Below, in pieces: positions 30,049 to 42,002 of a DNA stretch of 64,000 bases (the stretch's first letter is position 1; each line of letters begins with the position of its first letter). The notes under the pieces are model-generated. The model searched no databases and was not told the origin of the DNA. It was given only the letters and a program-made list of their open reading frames with translations. A program made the position numbers and the translations under genes. The DNA comes from Frigidibacter sp. ROC022 (GTDB taxonomy: Bacteria; Pseudomonadota; Alphaproteobacteria; Rhodobacterales; Rhodobacteraceae), in NCBI RefSeq assembly GCF_024723735.1, contig NZ_JANQDU010000002.1:635001-699000 (forward strand), in the 5' to 3' direction.

Positions 30049-31113
30049 ATGACTGACGTACGGCTCGACAAGATCTGCAAGACCTACGGAACCGTGGAGG
30101 TTCTGAAGGACATCGACCTCTCCATCGAGGATGGCGAATTCTGTGTCTTCGTCGGTCCTTCGGGCTGCGGGAAATCCACCCTGTTGCGGATGATCGCGGG
30201 GCTGGAAGAGATCACCTCGGGTGATCTCTCGATCGGCGACCGTCGGGTGAACAGCCTGTCCCCGAAAGAGCGTGGCATCGCCATGGTCTTTCAGAGCTAT
30301 GCGCTCTATCCGCACCGCACCGTGCGCGGCAACATGGAGTTCGGCCTGAAGCTGTCGCGGATGGACCGGCGCGAGATCGACGCGCGAATTGCGCGGGCGG
30401 CGAAGATGCTGCAGATCGAACCGCTTCTCGACCGCCGTCCGGCGCAGCTGTCAGGCGGGCAACGTCAGCGTGTGGCCATCGGCCGTGCGATCGTTCGGGA
30501 CCCGACGGTCTTCCTGTTCGACGAACCGCTCTCGAATCTCGACGCGGCGCTGCGGGTCGAGACCCGCCGCGAGATTGCCGCCCTGCACGAGAAACTCGGC
30601 ACCACGATGATCTATGTCACGCATGACCAGGTCGAGGCGATGACCCTGGCGGACAAGATCGTGGTGCTGAACGATGGCGCCGTGCAGCAGGTCGGCACGC
30701 CGCTGGAGCTCTACGATACGCCCGCCAACCTGTTCGTTGCCGGGTTCATCGGTTCTCCGCGAATGAATCTCTTCGCCGGGGAAGCCGGCCCGGAGGGCAT
30801 CGTCACCGCTTCCTTCGGCACCCTTCCGCGCCCCGACGGGCCCCTGCCGGAGGGGAATGTGACAATCGGCATCCGTCCCGAGAATCTCCACCTGACAAGC
30901 GAGGGCGGCGCGCGGGCCCGCGTGACCCTGGTCGAGCATCTCGGGAACGAGATTCTGGTGGAGCTGGCCCTGGCGGATGGTCAGAAGGCCGTCGCGCAAG
31001 GGCCGCGAAACCACTGCCCGACGCCCGGCGACAGCGTCGGAGTCACCATCGGGTCCGAGCCGCTGCACCTGTTCGACGGGCTCGGGCGGCGCATCGAGAC
31101 CCGGTCTCCGTAA
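30049..31113 (+). CDS. Sugar ABC transporter ATP-binding protein, UgpC/MalK type
   Basis: A 354-residue ATPase: Walker [11 protein letters not shown]-loop [10 protein letters not shown], signature LSGGQRQR, Walker [17 protein letters not shown], switch VTHDQVEAM, and a C-terminal TOBE domain ([12 protein letters not shown]). It energises the importer encoded at 24461-27545, from which it is separated by kinase, regulator and SIS genes on the same strand. Last gene of the amino-sugar operon. Confidence 0.93.
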
Positions 31114-31225: not shown

Positions 31226-31966
31226 TCAATAGGTGGCCCGGCCTCCGGAAAGATCGAAGACGGCGCCTGTCGTGAAAGAGTTTTCCGACGTGCATAGCCA
31301 GCAAATCATCGAGGCGGCCTCACCCAGTTCGAGGAACCGGCCCCTCGGGATTTTCGAGAGCATGAAATCGATATGTTCCTGCGACATCTGCTCGAAGATC
31401 CTTGTTCGTGCGGCCGCAGGCGTGACGGTGTTGATCGCGATATCGAGGTCGGCGTTTTCCTTGCCCATGGATTTGGTCATCCCGATGACGGCCGCCTTCG
31501 AGGCGGAATAGGCACTCGCGCCCGGGTTGCCTTCCTTGCCGGCGACCGAGGCGATGGTCACGATGCGGCCATAGTTCCTTGCCCGCATGTGGGGCAGGAC
31601 GGCCTGGCAACAGTTCAGGGTGCCATCGACATTGACGGCCATGATGCGCTGCCAGTCGGAGACCGGGTATTCGTGCAGTGGCGCATTGGGGCCTGCAAGC
31701 CCCGCGCTGGTCACGAGCGCGTCCAGTCTGCCGCCGTCTTCGCAAACTTTGCGGGCCGCTTCGACGACCGCGGCGCGATCCGTCACGTCAAGTGCGATGC
31801 CGGTTGCTCCCAGCCTGGCGGCGGCGTCGGAAACGAGCGCCGCGTCCATGTCCCACAGGAAGACCGTCGCGCCGCTCTGCCTGAGCCGCTCGGCAACCGC
31901 ATAGCCAATGCCCTGAGCGCCCCCGGTCACAACCGCAACCTGACCGTTCATGTCATAGGTGTTCAT
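31226..31966 (-). CDS. SDR-family oxidoreductase
   Basis: A 246-residue short-chain dehydrogenase: TGGAQGIGYA cofactor loop, TSAG in place of NNAG, TIASVAG catalytic Ser, YSASK, and the closing TGAVFDLSGG. On the minus strand GGAG lies 6 bases before ATG 31966; longer in-frame starts run into the operator region. Divergent from the enolase-superfamily gene at 32251 and with the AAGTAATACT operator 44 bp upstream. Probably the sugar (acid) dehydrogenase of this locus. Confidence 0.9.
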   Translation of the reverse strand: MNTYDMNGQVAVVTGGAQGIGYAVAERLRQSGATVFLWDMDAALVSDAAARLGATGIALDVTDRAAVVEAARKVCEDGGRLDALVTSAGLAGPNAPLHEYPVSDWQRIMAVNVDGTLNCCQAVLPHMRARNYGRIVTIASVAGKEGNPGASAYSASKAAVIGMTKSMGKENADLDIAINTVTPAAARTRIFEQMSQEHIDFMLSKIPRGRFLELGEAASMICWLCTSENSFTTGAVFDLSGGRATY

Positions 31967-32056: not shown

Positions 32057-32254
32057 ATGGAATTTTCCAGAATCGGCACATGGAGAGGCGAAGCGCCGGC
32101 GGTCTTGCCCGGCGACGGGTCCTTGCGGAGCCATCCGTCCGCGACGCCGGATATCGACGGCCGGTGTCTGTCCCGGCTCGGAGTCGGTCAACCCGGATTT
32201 GATGGGCCGGAACAGCAGAAACACCCTCTGCGCGCATCGGGGTCAAGGGCATGA
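32057..32254 (+). CDS. Possible small upstream ORF coupled to the enolase-superfamily gene
   Basis: A 65-codon frame that starts with GGAAGGGGAACGC-ATG, a strong ribosome site, and whose stop overlaps the next start in ATGA. The protein (starting MEFSRIGTWRGE) matches no family I know and is rich in Gly, Pro and Ser, with no membrane segment. The main gene has a poor site of its own, so translation of this frame may drive it by coupling. It may equally be only a leader with no functional product. Confidence 0.3.
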   Translation: MEFSRIGTWRGEAPAVLPGDGSLRSHPSATPDIDGRCLSRLGVGQPGFDGPEQQKHPLRASGSRA

Positions 32255-33423
32255 AGATCGAGGCGGTCGATTTCTGGTACCTGAGAATGCCCGTCGTCGA
32301 GGATATCGGCGATGGTAGCCAGGATGCCTTGCTCGTGCGGGTTTCCGGCGGCGGGCAGGAGGGCTGGGGCGAATGCGAGGCGGCCCCCGTCACCTCCATC
32401 GCGGCGGCCTACGCACCGATGTCCCACGAAGCCTGCAAGCCGGTGCTGGACGGCGTGATCGGCGCAACGCTCGATGACCCGGACGACATCCTGCGCCTGA
32501 GCCGGCGCCAGCGCCGCATCTGCATGGACCATCTGCAGGCGCCGCACACCTGGTCCGGCATCGAGATCGCGCTTTGGGACTTGCTCGGCAAGGCCCGTTC
32601 CGCACCGGTGTGGTCTCTCCTCGGACACAGGAAGGTCTTCCCCAAGCGCGCCTATGCATCCGTCTTGTTCGGCGCCTCCCCGCAAGACACCTTGCAGAAC
32701 GCCAGACAGGCCGTCGCCGCCGGCTTCACCGCGGCGAAGTTCGGATGGGGACCCTTCGGGACCGCTGGTGTCGAGGCGGACCGCGACCATCTGCTGGCCG
32801 CGCGGGAAGGCCTGGGGCCGGAGGCGATGCTGCTGGTCGATGCCGGCCAGATATTCGACCGCGATGTCGAGGCTGCCGCAGAGCGCATGGCCGCACTCGA
32901 GGACGTGCGGGCCGGGTGGTTCGAAGAGCCGTTCGGGGGCGAATGCCACAAGCAGTATGCCGCGTTGAAGGCCCGCTTCCCCAACGTGCCGATCGCAGGA
33001 GGCGAGGCGGCTCACTCCGTCGAAATGGCCGAGCACGCAATGGAATTCGGCCGGGTCGATTTCATCCAGATAGACACCGGGCGCATCGGCGGGATCGGCC
33101 CGGCGTCGGCCGTCGCGGAGATGGCAAGACAAGGCGGCATCCAGTTCGTCAATCATACATTCACCTCGCATCTGGCCTTGAGCGCATCGCTTCAGCCGTT
33201 CGCCGGATATGAGGCGTTTGACCTGTGCGAATATCCAGCCAATCCCAAACAACTCGCCCGTGACATTTCGGCATCCCTGCAATGCGATGCCGACGGACTC
33301 ATTTCTGCTTCGGAAAAACCGGGTCTCGGCGTGGACGTGGACCTCGCAAAGTTGAAGAAGTATCTTCAACAGGTGGAAATCTCAGTGAACGGCAAAATCC
33401 TCTACTCGACACCACCAATCTAG
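32251..33423 (+). CDS. Enolase-superfamily (mandelate racemase/muconate lactonizing type) enzyme
   Basis: A 390-residue enzyme: N-terminal capping domain, then the barrel with a Lys (FTAAKFGWGPF), metal ligands in LVDAGQIF, WFEEPFGG and IAGGEAAHS, and a late acid/base His in FVNHTF. This is the pattern of sugar-acid dehydratases of the mandelate racemase subgroup. It likely turns an aldonate into a 2-keto-3-deoxy acid. It stands between a divergent SDR and an FCD regulator, 7 bases before the latter. The substrate cannot be read from sequence alone. Confidence 0.88.
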   Translation: MKIEAVDFWYLRMPVVEDIGDGSQDALLVRVSGGGQEGWGECEAAPVTSIAAAYAPMSHEACKPVLDGVIGATLDDPDDILRLSRRQRRICMDHLQAPHTWSGIEIALWDLLGKARSAPVWSLLGHRKVFPKRAYASVLFGASPQDTLQNARQAVAAGFTAAKFGWGPFGTAGVEADRDHLLAAREGLGPEAMLLVDAGQIFDRDVEAAAERMAALEDVRAGWFEEPFGGECHKQYAALKARFPNVPIAGGEAAHSVEMAEHAMEFGRVDFIQIDTGRIGGIGPASAVAEMARQGGIQFVNHTFTSHLALSASLQPFAGYEAFDLCEYPANPKQLARDISASLQCDADGLISASEKPGLGVDVDLAKLKKYLQQVEISVNGKILYSTPPI

Positions 33424-33430
33424 GATCCAA

Positions 33431-34168
33431 ATGAGACAACTAGGTCAGAGGACTCCGAGTCTTCATGCCCGCATCGCGGAACAGCTCGGGCGGGACATCG
33501 TGAATGGATGTTATGAGGAAGGAGCACTTCTGCCTGGTGTCGAGGATCTGAGAGAGAAATTCGGAGCCTCTCGCGTGATTGTCCGCGAAGCGATCCGAAC
33601 CCTGGGGGCCAAGGGTCTGGTCTACAGTCGGCGCAAGATGGGCACGCGCGTCGCCAACCGGCAGGGCTGGAACATCTTCGACGAGGACGTATTGGCCTGG
33701 CTGATGGCGGAAGGAAGGGCCGGTGAATACCTTCTGGCCTTCATTGAATTCCGGCTGTTCGTCGAACCGGAAGCCGCGTCGATGGCGGCCAAACGGTCCA
33801 CCAAGGAACTGCTCCAGCCCCTGCGTGACAGCGTGGCAAAGATCGTTGCCTCGGACGGCGATCTGGTGCTGTTTCACGAGGGCGACATGCAGTTTCACCT
33901 TGCCCTGCTGAATGCCAGCGGAAATCCGTTCTTTGCCGGCCTGGGGCGCGCGGCGCAGACCTATCTGGACACGTCCTTCAGTCTTCAGGAGGCCGGCGTG
34001 GACAGGGCCGCCATCCGCAAGGAAATCGAGATGCACCAGAGACTTCTCGAAGCCATCGAGAACGGCGATGCAGACGGCGCGCGCAGGGAATGCCGGCGGA
34101 TCATCCTGAGCGGCAAGGAGGATCTGGAAAGCGAGATCGGGCAGGAGAGTGGCCGCAACGCCCGTTGA
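33431..34168 (+). CDS. GntR-family regulator (FadR/FCD subfamily)
   Basis: A 245-residue regulator: winged HTH (ARIAEQLGRDIVNGCYEEGA, DLREKFGASRVIVREAIRTL, KMGTRVANR) and FCD domain (FIEFRLFVEPEAASMAAKRS, FHEGDMQFHLALLNASGN, EIEMHQRLLEAIENGDADGA). The metal-binding D/H residues are kept. The W-N-x-x-D-x-D-V-L-x-W motif after the HTH is typical of galactonate-type (DgoR-like) members. Seven bases after the dehydratase gene. Expected to bind the ATAAGTAATACT sites at 32010 and 38598 and respond to a sugar acid or its keto product. Confidence 0.92.
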   Translation: MRQLGQRTPSLHARIAEQLGRDIVNGCYEEGALLPGVEDLREKFGASRVIVREAIRTLGAKGLVYSRRKMGTRVANRQGWNIFDEDVLAWLMAEGRAGEYLLAFIEFRLFVEPEAASMAAKRSTKELLQPLRDSVAKIVASDGDLVLFHEGDMQFHLALLNASGNPFFAGLGRAAQTYLDTSFSLQEAGVDRAAIRKEIEMHQRLLEAIENGDADGARRECRRIILSGKEDLESEIGQESGRNAR

Positions 34169-34228
34169 CCGAAACCCTGCCTGCCGGCCCGGGCTGAATC
34201 GACGCAATCCGGTCGCGAAGACGCGGCT

Positions 34229-34378
34229 TCAGAAGGTGACGGTAGGACCGCCATCCACCGTCAGCACCGTGCCGGTGACATAGCTTGCCGCATCCGAAAG
34301 CAGGAATCCGATACCGCGGCTCGCCCCGGTCACCACGGCGGCGCGCCCGGCGAAGCTTTCCGGGAGGGTGTCGTTCAT
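34229..34378 (-). pseudogene. SDR oxidoreductase reduced by an in-frame internal deletion
   Basis: A 49-codon frame on the minus strand. Residues 1-24 are a normal SDR N-terminus (AAVVTGASRGIG) and residues 25-49 a normal SDR C-terminus (LLSDAASYVTGTVLTVDGG). About 200 residues that should hold the NNAG, catalytic Ser and YxxxK segments are missing, yet frame and stop are intact. Its ATG overlaps the stop of the ABC ATPase gene (ATGA), showing it was the last gene of that operon. No catalytic activity is possible. Confidence 0.88.
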
Positions 34379-35457
34379 GGCGTGGCATCCACGCGCGGAA
34401 TCGCAACGTCCCGGTCATCGAAGAGATGGGACTCGCTGAAATCGAGTTGCAGCCCGACCAGATCGCCCGGTTCGGCGCGGGCGGTTCCCTGGGAAACCGA
34501 GACCAGCGAATGGCCACCAGCGCTTTCAAGATGGACATGCGTCTGGCTGCCGAGCCGCTCGACGGCCGAAACGCTCGCCCGCATTCCGGTGTCGCCGTCG
34601 TAGTCGATCGAAATGTTCTCGGGCCGCACGCCGATGTATTTTGCCCGACCGACTTGCCGCTGGTCCCAGGCGCTTACGTCAACGGCCTTGTGTCCGTCGA
34701 TATACAGCGCACCATCCTCGATCCGGACAGGAATGAAGTTCATCGTCGGCGCCCCCAGGAAACCGGCGACGAAACGGTTTGCCGGCCTGTGAAACAGATC
34801 CAGCGGCGCGCCGACCTGCTCGACGCGGCCGCCATTCAGGACAACGATACGATCCGCCATCGTCATCGCCTCGACCTGATCATGGGTAACATAGATCATC
34901 GTCGCGCCGAGCTCGCGTTGCAGCCGGGCCAGTTCGATCCGCATCTTGCCGCGCAGGGCCGCATCGAGGTTGGACAGGGGCTCGTCGAACAGGAAAAGCT
35001 CGGGATGCCGGACGATCGACCGGCCGATGGCCACACGCTGACGCTGTCCGCCAGACAACGCCCCGGGCTTGCGCTCCAGAAGCTCGCTCAGCGACAGCAT
35101 GGACGCGGCTTCCTTGACCTCCCGTTCACGCTTCTCCTTCGGCGCCCGATTGATGCGAAGTCCGAAGTCCATGTTCTCGCGAACATTCATGTGCGGGTAG
35201 AGCGCGTAGGTCTGGAACACCATGCTCACACGCCGGTCGGCAGGTTCGAGCAGGTCGATTCTCCTGCCGTTGAGGTCGATCCGACCCGATGAAATCGTCT
35301 CGAGTCCGGCAATCATCCGCAGGAGCGTGGACTTTCCGCAACCGGAGGGGCCGACGAATACGACGAACTCGCCCGGTTCGATCTCGAGATCGACAGACTT
35401 GATCACATTCGTTGTGCCAAAGCTTTTTGACACCGACTGGATATGGAGCCCTTGCAT
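34375..35457 (-). CDS. Sugar ABC transporter ATP-binding protein, UgpC/MalK type
   Basis: A 360-residue ATPase: Walker [11 protein letters not shown]-loop VFQTYALYPH, signature LSGGQRQR, Walker [17 protein letters not shown], switch [10 protein letters not shown]-terminal TOBE region (YIGVRPENISI). Fourth gene of a minus-strand operon, 12 bases after the second permease gene. Drives the importer encoded at 35470-38528. Confidence 0.93.
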   Translation of the reverse strand: MQGLHIQSVSKSFGTTNVIKSVDLEIEPGEFVVFVGPSGCGKSTLLRMIAGLETISSGRIDLNGRRIDLLEPADRRVSMVFQTYALYPHMNVRENMDFGLRINRAPKEKREREVKEAASMLSLSELLERKPGALSGGQRQRVAIGRSIVRHPELFLFDEPLSNLDAALRGKMRIELARLQRELGATMIYVTHDQVEAMTMADRIVVLNGGRVEQVGAPLDLFHRPANRFVAGFLGAPTMNFIPVRIEDGALYIDGHKAVDVSAWDQRQVGRAKYIGVRPENISIDYDGDTGMRASVSAVERLGSQTHVHLESAGGHSLVSVSQGTARAEPGDLVGLQLDFSESHLFDDRDVAIPRVDATP

Positions 35458-35469
35458 GGGAATTTCTTT

Positions 35470-36279
35470 CTACTTGACGGCGCCAGCCATGAGTCCGCGG
35501 ATGAAATATCGCTGAAAGGCGACATACAGGATCAGCATCGGAACGCTGGCCAGGGTGAGGCCTGCCATCGTCAGCGGGACATTGTTGTTGTAGCGGCCCT
35601 GGAAGACGCTGATCCCCGCCATCAGCGTGCGCCGGGAATCGTCCTGCAGGAAGATGATGGCGATCAGCAGGTCGTTCCAGACATAGAGCGCGTTCACCAC
35701 GATCAGCGAAAGCAGGGCTGGAAGCGACAGCGGCAGGACCACGTTGGTCAGGATCCGGAATGAGCCGGCTCCATCGAGCCTGGCAGCTTCGAAGAGCTCG
35801 TCCGGCAGCGTCCGGAAGAACGTCGTCAGAAGGAACACGCCGAAGGGCGTGATCAGCCCGGCATAGATGAGGATCGTTCCGCCGAAGGTGTTGATGAGGC
35901 CGAGCTGGGTATAGAGCACGAACAGGGGCACGATCATCGTCACGGGGGGCACCACCATCAGCGATGTGCTGACGCCCAGGATGACGCTGCGGCCCGCAAA
36001 ACGCATTCGCGCCAGTGCATAGGCCGCCAGAACCGCCACGATCGTGCTGAGCAGGACCGAGCCGGCGGTCAGCAGCAGGCTGTTGAAACCCCATTTGACA
36101 AAGGGGTGTTCGACAAGCGCCGAAACATAGTTCGACAGCCCGGGCGACTCGGGCCAGGCAACCTTGTCCGCGGCGTAGTCTTCGAGATTGCGGAACGAGG
36201 TCACGACCATGAAGACGGAAGGTGCCAGCGCGGCGACGGCGATCAGCGAGAGTGGAACATGTGTCCAAGACGGTCGCAT
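35470..36279 (-). CDS. Sugar ABC transporter permease, MalG/UgpE type
   Basis: A 269-residue permease with six predicted membrane segments (VPLSLIAVAALAPSVFMVV first), VVTSFRN, and EAA loop EAARLDGAGSFRILTNVVLP. The start at 36279 overlaps the preceding stop by one base (TAATG); an apparently longer frame reads back into the other permease and is rejected. Confidence 0.92.
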   Translation of the reverse strand: MRPSWTHVPLSLIAVAALAPSVFMVVTSFRNLEDYAADKVAWPESPGLSNYVSALVEHPFVKWGFNSLLLTAGSVLLSTIVAVLAAYALARMRFAGRSVILGVSTSLMVVPPVTMIVPLFVLYTQLGLINTFGGTILIYAGLITPFGVFLLTTFFRTLPDELFEAARLDGAGSFRILTNVVLPLSLPALLSLIVVNALYVWNDLLIAIIFLQDDSRRTLMAGISVFQGRYNNNVPLTMAGLTLASVPMLILYVAFQRYFIRGLMAGAVK

Positions 36280-37142
36280 TACCGATCTCCTCTCTGACGA
36301 AGCATGAAATACGGCACCATGATGAGCAGGCAGAGCCCGAGCAGCATGACACATACCGTGGCGGCGATGCCGGGCAGGCTCATCCGTGTCAGCGCATTGA
36401 ACACATAGAGTTCGACCACCATGGTCGAGGTGCCCGGTCCGCCGCGTCCGCCGCCGATCATGTACACATAGGCAAAGATCGCGGAGACCATCGTGATGAT
36501 CCCGAGGACGCCGACGAACTCGATCACGCTGGCACTCTGGGGCAGCTGGACATGGCGCAATCGCTGCCACCAGCTCGCCCCTTCCAGGCGCGCGGCCTCG
36601 GTATGGCTTTCGTCGATGCTCATCATGCGCGCCAGGATGAGGATCGTTCCTAGCGCCGCCTCACGCCAGATGATGACCCCGGCCAGGGTGAAGAGCGCGA
36701 CGTCCGGCGAGCCCAGCCAGTCCAGAGCCAGACCATCGAGACCGGCCCCCCGGAGCGTTTCGTTCACGGGACCGTCAAGCTGAAGCATCTGTTTGGCGAT
36801 CACCGCCACGACCGGAATCGCCAGGATGTAGGGCAGGAAGACAATCGATCGCATCGTCTTCCATCCGGCAGGCTGCTCGTTGAGCAGCGCGGCGGCAAAG
36901 ATCGAGAGAACCAGCAGAACCGGAATGGCCAGAAGCAGCTGGATGTTGTGCCCGACGGAGGTCCAGAACAAGTCCTGCCCCAGGACGAGTTCGTAATTCC
37001 GCCAACCGACCCAGGGCCCGTCGATGCCGCGTACCATCTTGAAACTGAACTCGACCATCTTCGCGACGGGGTAGCCGAACACGAAGAGGAGAAGGAGGAT
37101 CAATGGCGCCACATAGAGATATGGCTCGATCTTTTTGCGCAT
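36279..37142 (-). CDS. Sugar ABC transporter permease, MalF/UgpA type
   Basis: A 287-residue permease: first membrane segment LYVAPLILLLLFVFGYPVA, later EAA loop TEAARLEGASWWQRLRHVQLP. Six predicted membrane segments. Second gene of the operon, separated from the binding-protein gene by a strong hairpin. Pairs with the MalG-type permease. Confidence 0.92.
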   Translation of the reverse strand: MRKKIEPYLYVAPLILLLLFVFGYPVAKMVEFSFKMVRGIDGPWVGWRNYELVLGQDLFWTSVGHNIQLLLAIPVLLVLSIFAAALLNEQPAGWKTMRSIVFLPYILAIPVVAVIAKQMLQLDGPVNETLRGAGLDGLALDWLGSPDVALFTLAGVIIWREAALGTILILARMMSIDESHTEAARLEGASWWQRLRHVQLPQSASVIEFVGVLGIITMVSAIFAYVYMIGGGRGGPGTSTMVVELYVFNALTRMSLPGIAATVCVMLLGLCLLIMVPYFMLRQRGDR

Positions 37143-37199: not shown

Positions 37200-38528
37200 T
37201 CAGGTGAGGTCTTCGGCCCATTTCTCGTAGGACTCGAGAAGGTCCGGATTGAAGGCGCGCCATTCCTCGACGACACCTGCGGCGATTTCACCGGCCTCTT
37301 CGCCTCCGATCTCGTTGGCGAGAATCCGCTGCGCCACCGGCACCATCGCCTGTTCGTAGAACTGGCCCGGCGTCAGGTTGGCGACATGCGGGATGTTCTC
37401 CGACAGCCCCCACCTTTGCCAGAGATCGGCAACGGCGGGGTCTTCGATGACCGAGGCGTCGAAGTTCGCGTTCGAGGGAAGCCAGCCGGTTTCCTCCCAG
37501 AAGAGCGCCAGCTGTTCCGGGGCATGAAGGTGCTCGAGGAAGCGGGCGGCAAGTTCCGGGTTCTCGGTCCCGGCAGAGATACCGAGCCCCTGAACATCGA
37601 GGATCGGTTTGCCGGCCATGGCGCCCGTTCCGTAGACGGGCATCGTCATGACCCCGATCTGACCGGATGTCGCGGCGCTGTCGGCCGGCAACCGCGTACC
37701 GATCGACGGGCCCATGGCGATCTCTCCGGCCACGATCAGGTCGATCCCCGGGTAGAGCTCGATCGACGAAATGCTCGGATTGATGAAACCGGCGTCCCGC
37801 AGTTCGGCAAGGCGGCTCCAGTGCTCGTAGAACCTGGGCTCGCGGAAATCGAGCCCTCCGGTGAAGAGCTGCAGGGCCTGGCCGGCATTGTCGAGGTTCT
37901 GCACCAGCGCATGGGCCAGGTACCATTCGCCGAAGTAGCCGTCCTGGATACCGCCGCCGAACGGGACCTTGCCGATGGAACGGATCGCTTCGCATGCGGC
38001 AAGGAACGCGTCCCAGGTCGTCGGGGGATTCTCGGGGTCGAGCCCGGCCGCCTCGAAGACCGCCTTGTTGTAATACCACAGCATCGGAATCGGGTACCAA
38101 CCGACACGGTAGGTCTCGCCGCCATAACGCGAGAGGATCGTGGGGGACGAGGCATCGATGACGTCCTGAGACACCAGGCCCGAGACCGGTTGGACATACC
38201 CCAGCCACACGCTTTCCATATGATAGATGCCGTTCCAGAAATACTGGACGTCGGGCGCTTCTTTCGCCGCCGCCGCGGTCTGGAACTGCGTGATCACGGC
38301 ACTGGTGTCTTGCAGCAGCGGGGTAACGGTTCCGCCTTCAAAGGACGCAACGGCCTTCTTGACGAAGGACTGGAGCCCGGGAAGCTCCTGCTCACCCCAC
38401 CACCAGAAATCCAGCTCGCCGTCTTGTGCAAACGACATGCGCGGCATGGCCAATGACCCGGCACCGGCACCCAGCCCGGCAAGCACCGAGCGGCGGTCCA
38501 GCGTGAACGACTTTCTCGAAGACATCAC
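37200..38528 (-). CDS. Sugar ABC transporter substrate-binding protein (family 1), Tat-type signal
   Basis: A 442-residue binding protein: twin-arginine signal (LDRRSVLAGLGAGAG, cleavage region SFAQ-D), then LDFWWWGEQELPG and family-1 features (YFWNGIYHMESVW, PMLWYYNKAVFEAAGLDP, NPELAARFLEHLHAPEQ). First gene of a minus-strand operon with the ATAAGTAATACT operator about 70 bp upstream. The dehydratase, SDR and DgoR-like regulator that share the operator suggest a sugar or sugar-acid ligand. Confidence 0.92.
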   Translation of the reverse strand: MMSSRKSFTLDRRSVLAGLGAGAGSLAMPRMSFAQDGELDFWWWGEQELPGLQSFVKKAVASFEGGTVTPLLQDTSAVITQFQTAAAAKEAPDVQYFWNGIYHMESVWLGYVQPVSGLVSQDVIDASSPTILSRYGGETYRVGWYPIPMLWYYNKAVFEAAGLDPENPPTTWDAFLAACEAIRSIGKVPFGGGIQDGYFGEWYLAHALVQNLDNAGQALQLFTGGLDFREPRFYEHWSRLAELRDAGFINPSISSIELYPGIDLIVAGEIAMGPSIGTRLPADSAATSGQIGVMTMPVYGTGAMAGKPILDVQGLGISAGTENPELAARFLEHLHAPEQLALFWEETGWLPSNANFDASVIEDPAVADLWQRWGLSENIPHVANLTPGQFYEQAMVPVAQRILANEIGGEEAGEIAAGVVEEWRAFNPDLLESYEKWAEDLT

Positions 38529-38968: not shown

Positions 38969-40168
38969 TCAGACGGCTTCGGCCAGCAGTGCTTCGGGCA
39001 GGATCTCGATGCCCAGCCCGTCGCCATCGGGGGCGCGCAGCCGTCCGTCGCGCAGCTCCAGCGGGGTTTTCAGCACCGTGTCGCCCAGCGGATTCATCCC
39101 GATCCAGTATTCGCAGGTCATCGTGTTCGGCATCGCCGCGCCCAGATGGGCCGAGGCGGCGACGGCAATGGCCGATCCGATGCTGACATGGGGGGCGAAG
39201 GCGACGCCGAAGCTGTCGGCCAGTTCCGCGATCCGGCGGCATTCGGTGATCCCGCCGGCGCGGCAGACATCCGGCTGCACCAGGTGCAGGGCGTCGCGGC
39301 GCAGGAAGTCCAGGGTTTCCCAGCGGGTCATCAGCGAATCCAGCGCCATCGGGATCGACAGCTGGCTGGCCAGCCGGGCATAGCCCTGCTTGTCCTCGGG
39401 CGGGATCGGCATTTCGAGGAAACCGAACTCCAGTTCCTCCAGCGCCTTGCCGATCTTCAGCGCCTGCGGCACGTCATAGCAGCCGGCGGCGTCGGCAAAG
39501 AGGTCGAAGCCTTCGCCCAGGGTGTCGCGCAGGGTCCGGGCGCTGCGGATGTCGCCCGGGATGTCGCGGCCGAGGGCCAGCTTGATGGCGGTGAAGCCCC
39601 GCGCCCGCAATTCGCGCGCCTGTTCGGCCAGGTCGGCATAGGCCTCTTCCGGCGCATCGCCGGCCAGCGCCGGCAGGCCGCTGGCATAGACCCGGACCGG
39701 GTTGCGGAAGGCGCCGCCGAGAAGCTGGTGGATCGGCTGCCCCGTGGCCTTGCCCAGGATGTCCCACAGCGCGATGTCCACCCCGGCGATCGCTTCCAGC
39801 CAGAACCCCGCCTGATGCCCGCGCACCCGCATCCCGGCATACATCTTTTCCCACAGCAGCGTGGTGTCGCGCGGGTCGGCCCCGATCAACAGCGGCGCCA
39901 GCAGGGAATCGATGATCTGCCTGGTCGCGATCGCCGCCACCGGGGCCTTGGCCTCGCCCCAGCCGACCAGGCCATCGTTGGTGGTGATGCGGACGATGAC
40001 GGTTTCGATCCGGTCCGAATAGATGAAGGTGCGGCGCTGCTTCGGCGGGTATTCGGCCGAGATCGTCATCGTCTTCGGCGCCATCTTCCAGGCCCTGGCG
40101 CCCCAGTACTCCTTGGTGTCGATCGGTTTGGCCCGGATCGCGAAGGTTTCCACGGTCTCGATCTTCAT
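38969..40168 (-). CDS. Enolase-superfamily (mandelate racemase type) sugar-acid dehydratase
   Basis: A 399-residue enzyme: capping domain (IETVIVRITTNDGLVGWGE), barrel Lys in FTAIKLALG, metal ligands in LFADAAGCYD, LEMPIPPED and the Asp of MALDSLMTRW, and late His in FAPHVSIGS. The third ligand is Asp where Glu is more usual. The start at 40168 overlaps the upstream hydrolase stop (ATGA); an in-frame ATG 9 bases earlier is also possible. Last gene of a minus-strand operon with GH105, a DMT exporter-like protein, an esterase, a VOC protein and a keto-deoxy-sugar kinase; likely makes a 2-keto-3-deoxy acid. Confidence 0.88.
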   Translation of the reverse strand: MKIETVETFAIRAKPIDTKEYWGARAWKMAPKTMTISAEYPPKQRRTFIYSDRIETVIVRITTNDGLVGWGEAKAPVAAIATRQIIDSLLAPLLIGADPRDTTLLWEKMYAGMRVRGHQAGFWLEAIAGVDIALWDILGKATGQPIHQLLGGAFRNPVRVYASGLPALAGDAPEEAYADLAEQARELRARGFTAIKLALGRDIPGDIRSARTLRDTLGEGFDLFADAAGCYDVPQALKIGKALEELEFGFLEMPIPPEDKQGYARLASQLSIPMALDSLMTRWETLDFLRRDALHLVQPDVCRAGGITECRRIAELADSFGVAFAPHVSIGSAIAVAASAHLGAAMPNTMTCEYWIGMNPLGDTVLKTPLELRDGRLRAPDGDGLGIEILPEALLAEAV

Positions 40169-41124
40169 TCTGTGCATTCCATCATCAATAGGGGGCCCTG
40201 GCCCCAGGGAAATCGGCCGAAGGGCCGGGTGGCATAGGTGGAGTATTGTCCGACGGGTGTCGCTTCGCTGACCCGGCCGAGAACGCCCCGCGCATCGGTC
40301 AGGCCGCGAACCCCCCGGACCGCCGCGGCCAGCGGGGCGGCGTCGGCCACCGGATCCGGGGCGTGGCGCAGCGCGATCACGAACATCGCCGCAAGGGTCG
40401 GCTCGGCATGGCTCTCGGGCCGGTCCACCACCATGTGCCAGAGCCCGTCCTCGCGTTGCAGCGGCAGCAGGGCCGCGACCATGGAGGTGAAGCGGTCGCG
40501 CAGCTCGGCCCAGCCCTCGGTCGAACGTGGCGCCAGGGCCAGCACATCGGCCATGCCCATCAGCGCCCAGCCCATGCCGCGCGACCACAGATGTCCGTTG
40601 CGGCCGGCGTGGGTGTCGTAGCCATGCGATGCCAGCCCGCCTTCACCCTGCAGGCAACGCAGATGCGCCAGGGTCAGCGCGACGGCGGTCCGGTGCCGGT
40701 CGGGATCGCCGGTCACGGCGCCCAGATGCGCGAACAGCGGCCCGATCAGATCGACCGAGTCGATCCAGATCTGATGCTTCCACCCCGCCTGATGGGCCCG
40801 CACCAGCAGCGCGCCCTCCGGATTGCGCGGCATCCGCAGGTGCATCTCGGCCAGGGCTTCGGCGGCGGCCAGATAGCGCGGGTCGCCCCGCCGCCGGTAG
40901 AGCGCCAACAGGGCCCGGCCCGGAGCCGGATGATGCTCAGGGCTGGAACCGAGCCCGTTGCCGATGGAAGACAGGCAGAGGGCCGCGACATGCTGTTCCC
41001 ATTGCGGCGCATCAAGGCGGCGGGCGGCTTCGAGCAGCGCGTCGAGGGCGATCGCCTCGCCAAAGCTCCATTGGCGGAACGGCCAGTCCGCGGTCGCGGC
41101 GGCGATGGTGGCCAGATCGGTCAT
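40165..41124 (-). CDS. GH105/GH88-type unsaturated uronyl hydrolase-like protein
   Basis: A 319-residue alpha/alpha-toroid hydrolase: HQIWIDSVDLIGPLFAHLG carries the catalytic-type Asp of the unsaturated rhamnogalacturonyl hydrolase family, with HLWSRGMGWALMGMADVL and DGLWHMVVDRPES typical of GH105. These enzymes remove the unsaturated 4-deoxy-uronate left by polysaccharide lyases. No signal peptide, so it acts on imported oligomers. The start overlaps the stop of the gene before it (ATGA). Confidence 0.85.
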   Translation of the reverse strand: MTDLATIAAATADWPFRQWSFGEAIALDALLEAARRLDAPQWEQHVAALCLSSIGNGLGSSPEHHPAPGRALLALYRRRGDPRYLAAAEALAEMHLRMPRNPEGALLVRAHQAGWKHQIWIDSVDLIGPLFAHLGAVTGDPDRHRTAVALTLAHLRCLQGEGGLASHGYDTHAGRNGHLWSRGMGWALMGMADVLALAPRSTEGWAELRDRFTSMVAALLPLQREDGLWHMVVDRPESHAEPTLAAMFVIALRHAPDPVADAAPLAAAVRGVRGLTDARGVLGRVSEATPVGQYSTYATRPFGRFPWGQGPLLMMECTE

Positions 41125-42002
41125 GTGGCGGCTCCGGGTGTGCCGAGGGTGCGGGAGCCGGGCAGGAACAGCGCCAGCCCCGCCGCGACGATCAGGCCGA
41201 TCCCTGCCCATCCGGCGGCGTTCGGATAGACGCCCCAGATTGCCGCATCGAAGAACAGCGCCCAGAGGATGCTGGAATAGCGCAATGGCGCGATGGTCGC
41301 GACACTGGCGCGGCGGAAGGCGAAGAGGATCAGGGTATTGGCCCCCAGAAAGCCCAGTGTCGAGATCGCGATCAGGCCCAGGTCACGCGGGGCCGGGGTG
41401 CTCCAGACCGTGTTCCGGGCCAGCACCAGCGCGATGACGCCGATCAGCATCGAGGACAGAAAGACCGATTTCAGCGGATCGGCGGCGGTCGGCATCGCGC
41501 GGGTCACGATGTCACGCGCCGCATAGGCCAGGGTCGAGATCACCGCCAGGACCAGCCCCGGGGCCGAGACCGCCCCGCCGGGCTGCAGGATCAGCGCCAC
41601 GCCGACAAAGCCGGTCGCCAGCGCCGCCCAGGTGATGCGCCGCATCGGTTCGCGCAGCACCAGCGCCGAAAGGGCGGTGGTGACAAGCGGCAGGGTCGCG
41701 TGGATCGTGGCCAGTGTCGCCAGAGGCAGGCGAAACACCGCCAGTGCAAAGGTCAGCCCGGCCAGGGCATCGACGCCGGCCCGCATTGCGCCGTGCCGGC
41801 CCAGGGGCCCCCGGATGCCGTGCCGGTAGCGCAGGCCCAGGATCAGCGCCAGCAGCGCCATGACCGCCATCGCGCGCATCGCGATGGCTTCGGCACTGGC
41901 CAGCCCCTCGGCCAGCTTCAGGAACACGCTGGCCAGCACCCCGGACAGCAGCGCCGTCAGCGCCAGCGGGATGCCGTGGCGGGAGGGCGCTGCGGGGGTC
42001 AC
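41121..42002 (-). CDS. EamA/DMT-family membrane transporter
   Basis: A 293-residue protein with about ten hydrophobic segments in two EamA repeats (LALTALLSGVLASVFLKLAE, ITWAALATGFVGVALILQPG, LGLIAISTLGFLGANTLILF). No ATG fits; a GTG at 42002 with AGGCAGGA about 12 bases upstream gives the standard family length, whereas longer frames run into the preceding esterase gene. Probably exports or exchanges a small metabolite of the pathway. Confidence 0.82.
   Translation of the reverse strand: MTPAAPSRHGIPLALTALLSGVLASVFLKLAEGLASAEAIAMRAMAVMALLALILGLRYRHGIRGPLGRHGAMRAGVDALAGLTFALAVFRLPLATLATIHATLPLVTTALSALVLREPMRRITWAALATGFVGVALILQPGGAVSAPGLVLAVISTLAYAARDIVTRAMPTAADPLKSVFLSSMLIGVIALVLARNTVWSTPAPRDLGLIAISTLGFLGANTLILFAFRRASVATIAPLRYSSILWALFFDAAIWGVYPNAAGWAGIGLIVAAGLALFLPGSRTLGTPGAAT

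Follow-up and report, generated by a model that had tools for sequence, protein, structure and literature searches.

SDR genes beside sugar transporters and SDR pseudogenes

Classical SDRs are marked by three active-site motifs, namely NNAG, a catalytic Ser and Tyr-x3-Lys. Among the members of this family with which the gene considered here can be compared most directly are SDRs encoded next to sugar ABC transporters. Two of these, SDR1 and SDR2 of a single locus (L118) in the genome G455, reach the cutoff of the NCBIfam model NF005559, the 'glucose 1-dehydrogenase' subfamily, and a third, from the locus L161, which is also placed beside a sugar ABC transporter, reaches no NCBIfam cutoff among the matches listed. 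SDRs also have a record as decaying genes: a survey of prokaryotic pseudogenes (PMC522871), which sought matches with frameshifts or premature stops, names them among its top families.

Against this background we describe a 49-residue ORF (34229-34378, minus strand; sequence MNDTLPESFAGRAAVVTGASRGIGFLLSDAASYVTGTVLTVDGGPTVTF), hereafter the stub, from a window of Frigidibacter sp. ROC022, i.e. the whole stretch of 64,000 nucleotides that was analysed. In all likelihood it is what an ordinary deletion has left of an SDR gene. Like the SDRs of L118 and L161 it has an N-terminal TGxxxG[IL]G, a C-terminal TG...VDGG...TF and a gene that adjoins an ABC transporter; unlike them, it has lost about 200 residues of the middle, including the whole active site. 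The stub is also comparable to the pseudogenes recorded in the above survey, being a disabled copy of the SDR family in a genome with many paralogues, but an in-frame internal deletion such as this one would probably escape a search of that design.

Architecture of the stub

The stub consists of an SDR nucleotide-binding start, …GRAAVVTGASRGIG, fused directly to an SDR end, LLSDAASYVTGTVLTVDGGPTVTF. Residues 10-24 correspond to the standard SDR opening and residues 26-49 to the standard SDR ending, which gives the following division:

34307..34378, minus strand: N-terminal SDR remnant, residues 1-24 (beta1, TGxxxGIG loop), from motifs, phmmer and scoring
34304..34306, minus strand: codon TTC of Phe25, the deletion junction, which could belong to either flank; possible 3-nt microhomology
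34229..34303, minus strand: C-terminal SDR remnant, residues 26-49 (LLSDAASYVTG...VDGG, ending TF), and stop, from Pfam, NCBIfam and scoring

The boundaries drawn in the original prediction, with 24 residues of SDR start and 25 of SDR end, are thus right, except that Phe25 is assignable to either side. Direct reading likewise bears out its statement that start overlap, frame and stop are preserved in the 49-codon ORF: the ATG of the stub and the stop codon of the ABC ATPase ORF (34375-35457) overlap as ATGA, in the context CCATGA.

Both ends of the stub show homology to those of an intact family member with the contiguous middle missing. The cofactor loop TGxxxGxG is present as TGASRGIG (residues 17-24) and the C-terminal [TS]G...DGG segment as VTGTVLTVDGG, in a protein whose 49 aa fall far short of the SDR domain size of ~250 residues. 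The Pfam profile PF13561 matches with an E-value of 4.2e-6 and 26.9 bits, just under its gathering score of 27, and in the best stretch stub residues 10-45 are placed on the C-terminal end of the profile (200-235 of 236). The N half is matched weakly by PF00106 (residues 13-31 on profile positions 2-20, E 0.071), and the NCBIfam profiles detect mainly the C half. A phmmer search against solved structures recovers the SDR chain 4j2h with a whole-sequence E-value of 1.8e-7, the N part of the stub aligning with residues 10-48 and the C part with residues 222-253 of one chain; taken singly, the two pieces are weak (E 0.041 and 0.32). NNAG, the catalytic Ser and Tyr-x3-Lys are absent from the stub on direct reading (the protein is without any lysine), and with these motifs missing the stub is predicted to be no enzyme.

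The extent of the loss was gauged against 28 distinct intact SDRs, taken as ORFs of at least 200 residues fitting SDR motif patterns, whereby non-fitting SDRs were dropped, and with the omission of eight loci that duplicate others or contain the window. Between GIG and the C-terminal TG the stub has 10 residues and these SDRs have 210-234 (median 218), so that some 200-224 residues, the middle four-fifths of the gene, are gone, in good agreement with the roughly 200 that had been proposed from the sequence. In leave-one-out position-specific scoring against the intact SDRs, the N half ranks 5th of 23 (with 22 of the 28 SDRs, those of equal motif length) and the C half 16th of 29 (with all 28). 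Neither half appears visibly decayed. A chance ORF is ruled out by the Pfam and phmmer matches and by the scores of both halves, which lie within the range of intact SDRs.

Operon context and related loci

A minus-strand gene set ends with the stub; it comprises, in this order, a solute-binding protein, two permeases, an ATPase and the stub itself. This set and the genes next to it are as follows:

37200..38528, minus strand: extracellular solute-binding protein of the same operon, 62% identity to G455
36279..37142, minus strand: ABC permease (BPD_transp_1), 62% identity to L118
35470..36279, minus strand: ABC permease (BPD_transp_1), 66% identity to L118 over residues 104-366; the ORF as listed is 35470-36570, with the ATG start at 36279 inferred
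34375..35457, minus strand: ABC ATPase of the UgpC/MalK type, intact and directly upstream of the stub (NF008653, 462.5 bits, cutoff 432)
33431..34168, plus strand: GntR/FCD regulator, convergent with the stub (family match)
32251..33423, plus strand: enolase-superfamily (MR/MLE) sugar-acid dehydratase-like gene, which reaches no NCBIfam cutoff
31226..31966, minus strand: intact neighbouring SDR, 246 aa from an ATG at 31966 (start inferred), by family matches

The family names suggest that the setting is one of sugar-acid catabolism. A scan of 34050-34450 for terminators and promoters found none.

The operon of the binding protein and permeases looks rare. With the binding protein as query, the source genome is the sole match both in the family set (295 genomes, E <= 1e-60) and in the phylum set (398 genomes, E <= 1e-50), and the class set (385 genomes) yields one other match, G455, at 62% identity; these genome sets overlap, and 4-5 first-look candidates were scored per genome. 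The transporter operon is also carried by a MAG fragment (L030), and a plasmid search with the binding protein and one permease as queries returned only relatives under 60% identity. Comparison of the operon with relatives is confined to one other whole genome and one MAG fragment, the source genus itself being represented by one genome. In L118 of G455 there are two intact SDRs of 289 and 258 aa, both ending in ...TF like the stub, but they are encoded upstream of the binding protein and not after the ATPase, in a gene order unlike that of the window. No SDR is found in the 5.9-kb L030 fragment.

The comparison with operons of relatives that had been suggested as a check gives a divided answer when extended to the ATPase. 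The 80 loci that match the ATPase best are not true orthologous operons (the nearest operon, L118, having its SDRs elsewhere); in 18 of them the next gene is SDR-like by pattern. One of these, the 487-aa next gene of L091, was excluded by its length and its missing DGG end, which leaves 17 loci with an intact SDR (253-271 aa) as the next gene and 63 with no SDR recognised there. As in the stub, a 4-base start/stop overlap with the ATPase is seen in seven of the 17, with overlaps counted from the first start codon met by the script. By these gene orders an SDR after the ATPase recurs without being the general case, and the stub would be a shortened form of it. This may also have been the ancestral position; of the orthologous sets, L118 has its SDRs upstream of the binding protein and the L030 fragment shows none.

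A further gene at about 2540-3526 of L118 (G455:C75), placed after the permeases, has a 54% identical counterpart in L030 and is presumably an aldose epimerase. The window has no room for such an epimerase-like gene between permease and ATPase.

Search for further stubs

As a protein query against 294 other genomes of the family (E <= 0.1, with up to 23 candidates scored in each), the stub retrieved no second stub among the matches listed. Each of the 295 genomes was matched, and the matches listed for genomes other than the source lie in frames of at least 233 aa. Against 384 other genomes of the class (E <= 5e-6, with up to 18 candidates scored in each), a set that partly overlaps the former, 18 genomes were matched, again with no second stub; a strongly diverged stub could escape these searches. 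Three of the class-genome matches fall in frames under 230 aa (52, 104 and 193 aa). The frames of 52 and 104 aa (G449 and G585) are SDR tails cut by contig ends, and that of 193 aa (G554) belongs to an SDR with its first and later parts in two frames. This last gene (L165, G554:C4, 1412-2257), split over two frames, is either a frameshifted pseudogene or a sequence error. The stub query also matched 2909 plasmid records, a count of matches in which stub and full-length forms are not distinguished. Among the literature matches listed, no title or abstract start deals with an SDR internal-deletion mini-protein.

Origin of the stub

The architecture described above gives good support to an SDR gene having undergone an internal deletion in frame, and we consider it very probable that the stub is an ordinary internal-deletion remnant of the gene that closed a sugar/sugar-acid ABC operon. 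The sequence, its missing middle and the repeated ATPase-SDR order near related ATPases are observed; how the deletion arose, which class of substrate is taken up, that function was lost and that other SDRs cover any need are what we infer from there. An intact SDR would once have ended an ABC uptake operon for a sugar or sugar acid (binding protein, two permeases, ATPase, SDR). One deletion inside the gene, of ~600-670 bp as judged from intact homologues, would then have brought the codon that follows the TGxxxGIG loop next to the one that precedes the C-terminal SDR motif. Slippage or illegitimate recombination between very short repeats, e.g. TTC, is the probable route. The outcome would be a pseudogene remnant whose frame was kept by chance (one in three), and any 49-residue product coupled to the ATPase could not be an enzyme. 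Start, overlap and stop would be kept simply because the deletion is internal. Of the 'precise in-frame deletion' originally proposed, the in-frame internal deletion holds, but it is not notably precise: since one third of internal deletions keep the frame, no selection is needed. The accompanying suggestion of a 'very recent' deletion is plausible in view of the scores of the two halves, neither of which falls outside the intact SDRs.

Breakpoints and microhomology are deduced from distant homologues and not from the intact parent gene. By summed N+C score, SDR1 of L118 is the best of the 29 SDRs compared, and it has TTC both after GIG and before LCSD, i.e. at both positions matching the junction; the three other SDRs compared at the junction have no TTC after the loop (one of four has TTC on both sides). 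If a 3-nt repeat was indeed involved, it would be of the kind often left by replication slippage or illegitimate recombination. Direct repeats linking both sides of the junction were not found within 33400-35500, as expected once the middle is gone. The construction of the stub from two neighbouring SDR genes is not supported, as the neighbour at 31226-31966 ends in ...LSGGRATY, unlike the stub.

The same short ORF would be read if the cell had an intact SDR, the middle of which was dropped by the assembler. Such an assembly or sequencing artefact could draw on the draft state of the genome, which is in 21 contigs, and on there being no second stub among the matches listed for other genomes, but we regard it as unlikely. 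At E <= 0.001 the stub DNA matches the genome nowhere else, the next-best match being of 22 bases with an E-value of 0.007 (40 of 75 candidates scored). With no second DNA match, no repeat was found by which a short-read assembler could be misled. Of the 53 SDR matches in the genome, none resembles an orphan SDR middle, though a divergent middle could be missed, and the partial SDR matches begin at query residue 41 or earlier, including the N-terminal end, in frames of at least 228 aa. The sequence shared at the junction, likely of ~3 nt, would moreover be too short for assembly collapse. Nothing seen favours misassembly. Nor was a duplicate or repeat of another SDR found in the genome at the DNA level, also with longer queries (40 of 184 and 40 of 326 candidates scored); matches of the stub elsewhere have E-values of 0.007 or worse, and include the end of an SDR on contig C15 (73% over 56 bases).

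Retention of the stub as a translated mini-protein with an acquired role, e.g. interfering with SDR oligomers via its C-terminal segment, would accord with the intact frame, start overlap and stop and with the two undegraded halves, but any internal deletion that is recent and in frame would show the same. Undamaged halves would fit a retained function too; a recent deletion explains them equally well. The short form is, further, seen in no other genome, either among the matches listed for the 294 family genomes or in the 18 matching of 384 class genomes, and a single-sequence AlphaFold2 model of the stub predicts one helix (residues 8-35, pTM 0.44) and no Rossmann piece, a weak indication as it was made with no alignment. 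We hence hold this retention to be very improbable. Fainter still is the prospect of a 49-residue product made at a fixed ratio to the ABC ATPase and acting as an SDR microprotein that modulates other SDRs. If true, it would be a cofactor loop plus a C-terminal interface fragment binding other SDR enzymes of the cell. The mini-protein made in step with the ATPase, as the original prediction had it, could conceivably arise by coupling to that gene.

Read as a deletion remnant, the stub looks like ordinary gene decay and not a new kind of small protein. It captures cleanly the loss of a gene from the end of a transporter operon, the remaining genes of which are intact, and would have larger importance only if it were translated and conserved. 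Its main value is as a caution for annotation, where such a gene would either be missed or be labelled a small 'SDR family oxidoreductase' when no enzyme is left.

Redundancy and neighbouring sugar-acid genes

The genome holds 53 SDR matches (E <= 1e-8), among which the C15 SDR, found in another operon of the source genome, is of the same type and 68% identical to SDR1 of L118. These suggest that redundancy is plausible and that the loss of the enzyme would be tolerable. The operon of the C15 SDR has an MR/MLE gene, an ABC ATPase and, nearby, a gene like one in G455 that we take to be of the SMP-30 type.

Within the window, two MalK-type ABC ATPases (30049-31113 and 34375-35457) lie ~3 kb apart on opposite strands, and a single permease pair was seen among the genes scanned there. 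A second MR/MLE (enolase superfamily) gene at 38969-40588 abuts or overlaps a gene of glycosyl hydrolase family 88 at 40165-41211, a pair that may point to the use of unsaturated sugar-acid oligomers.
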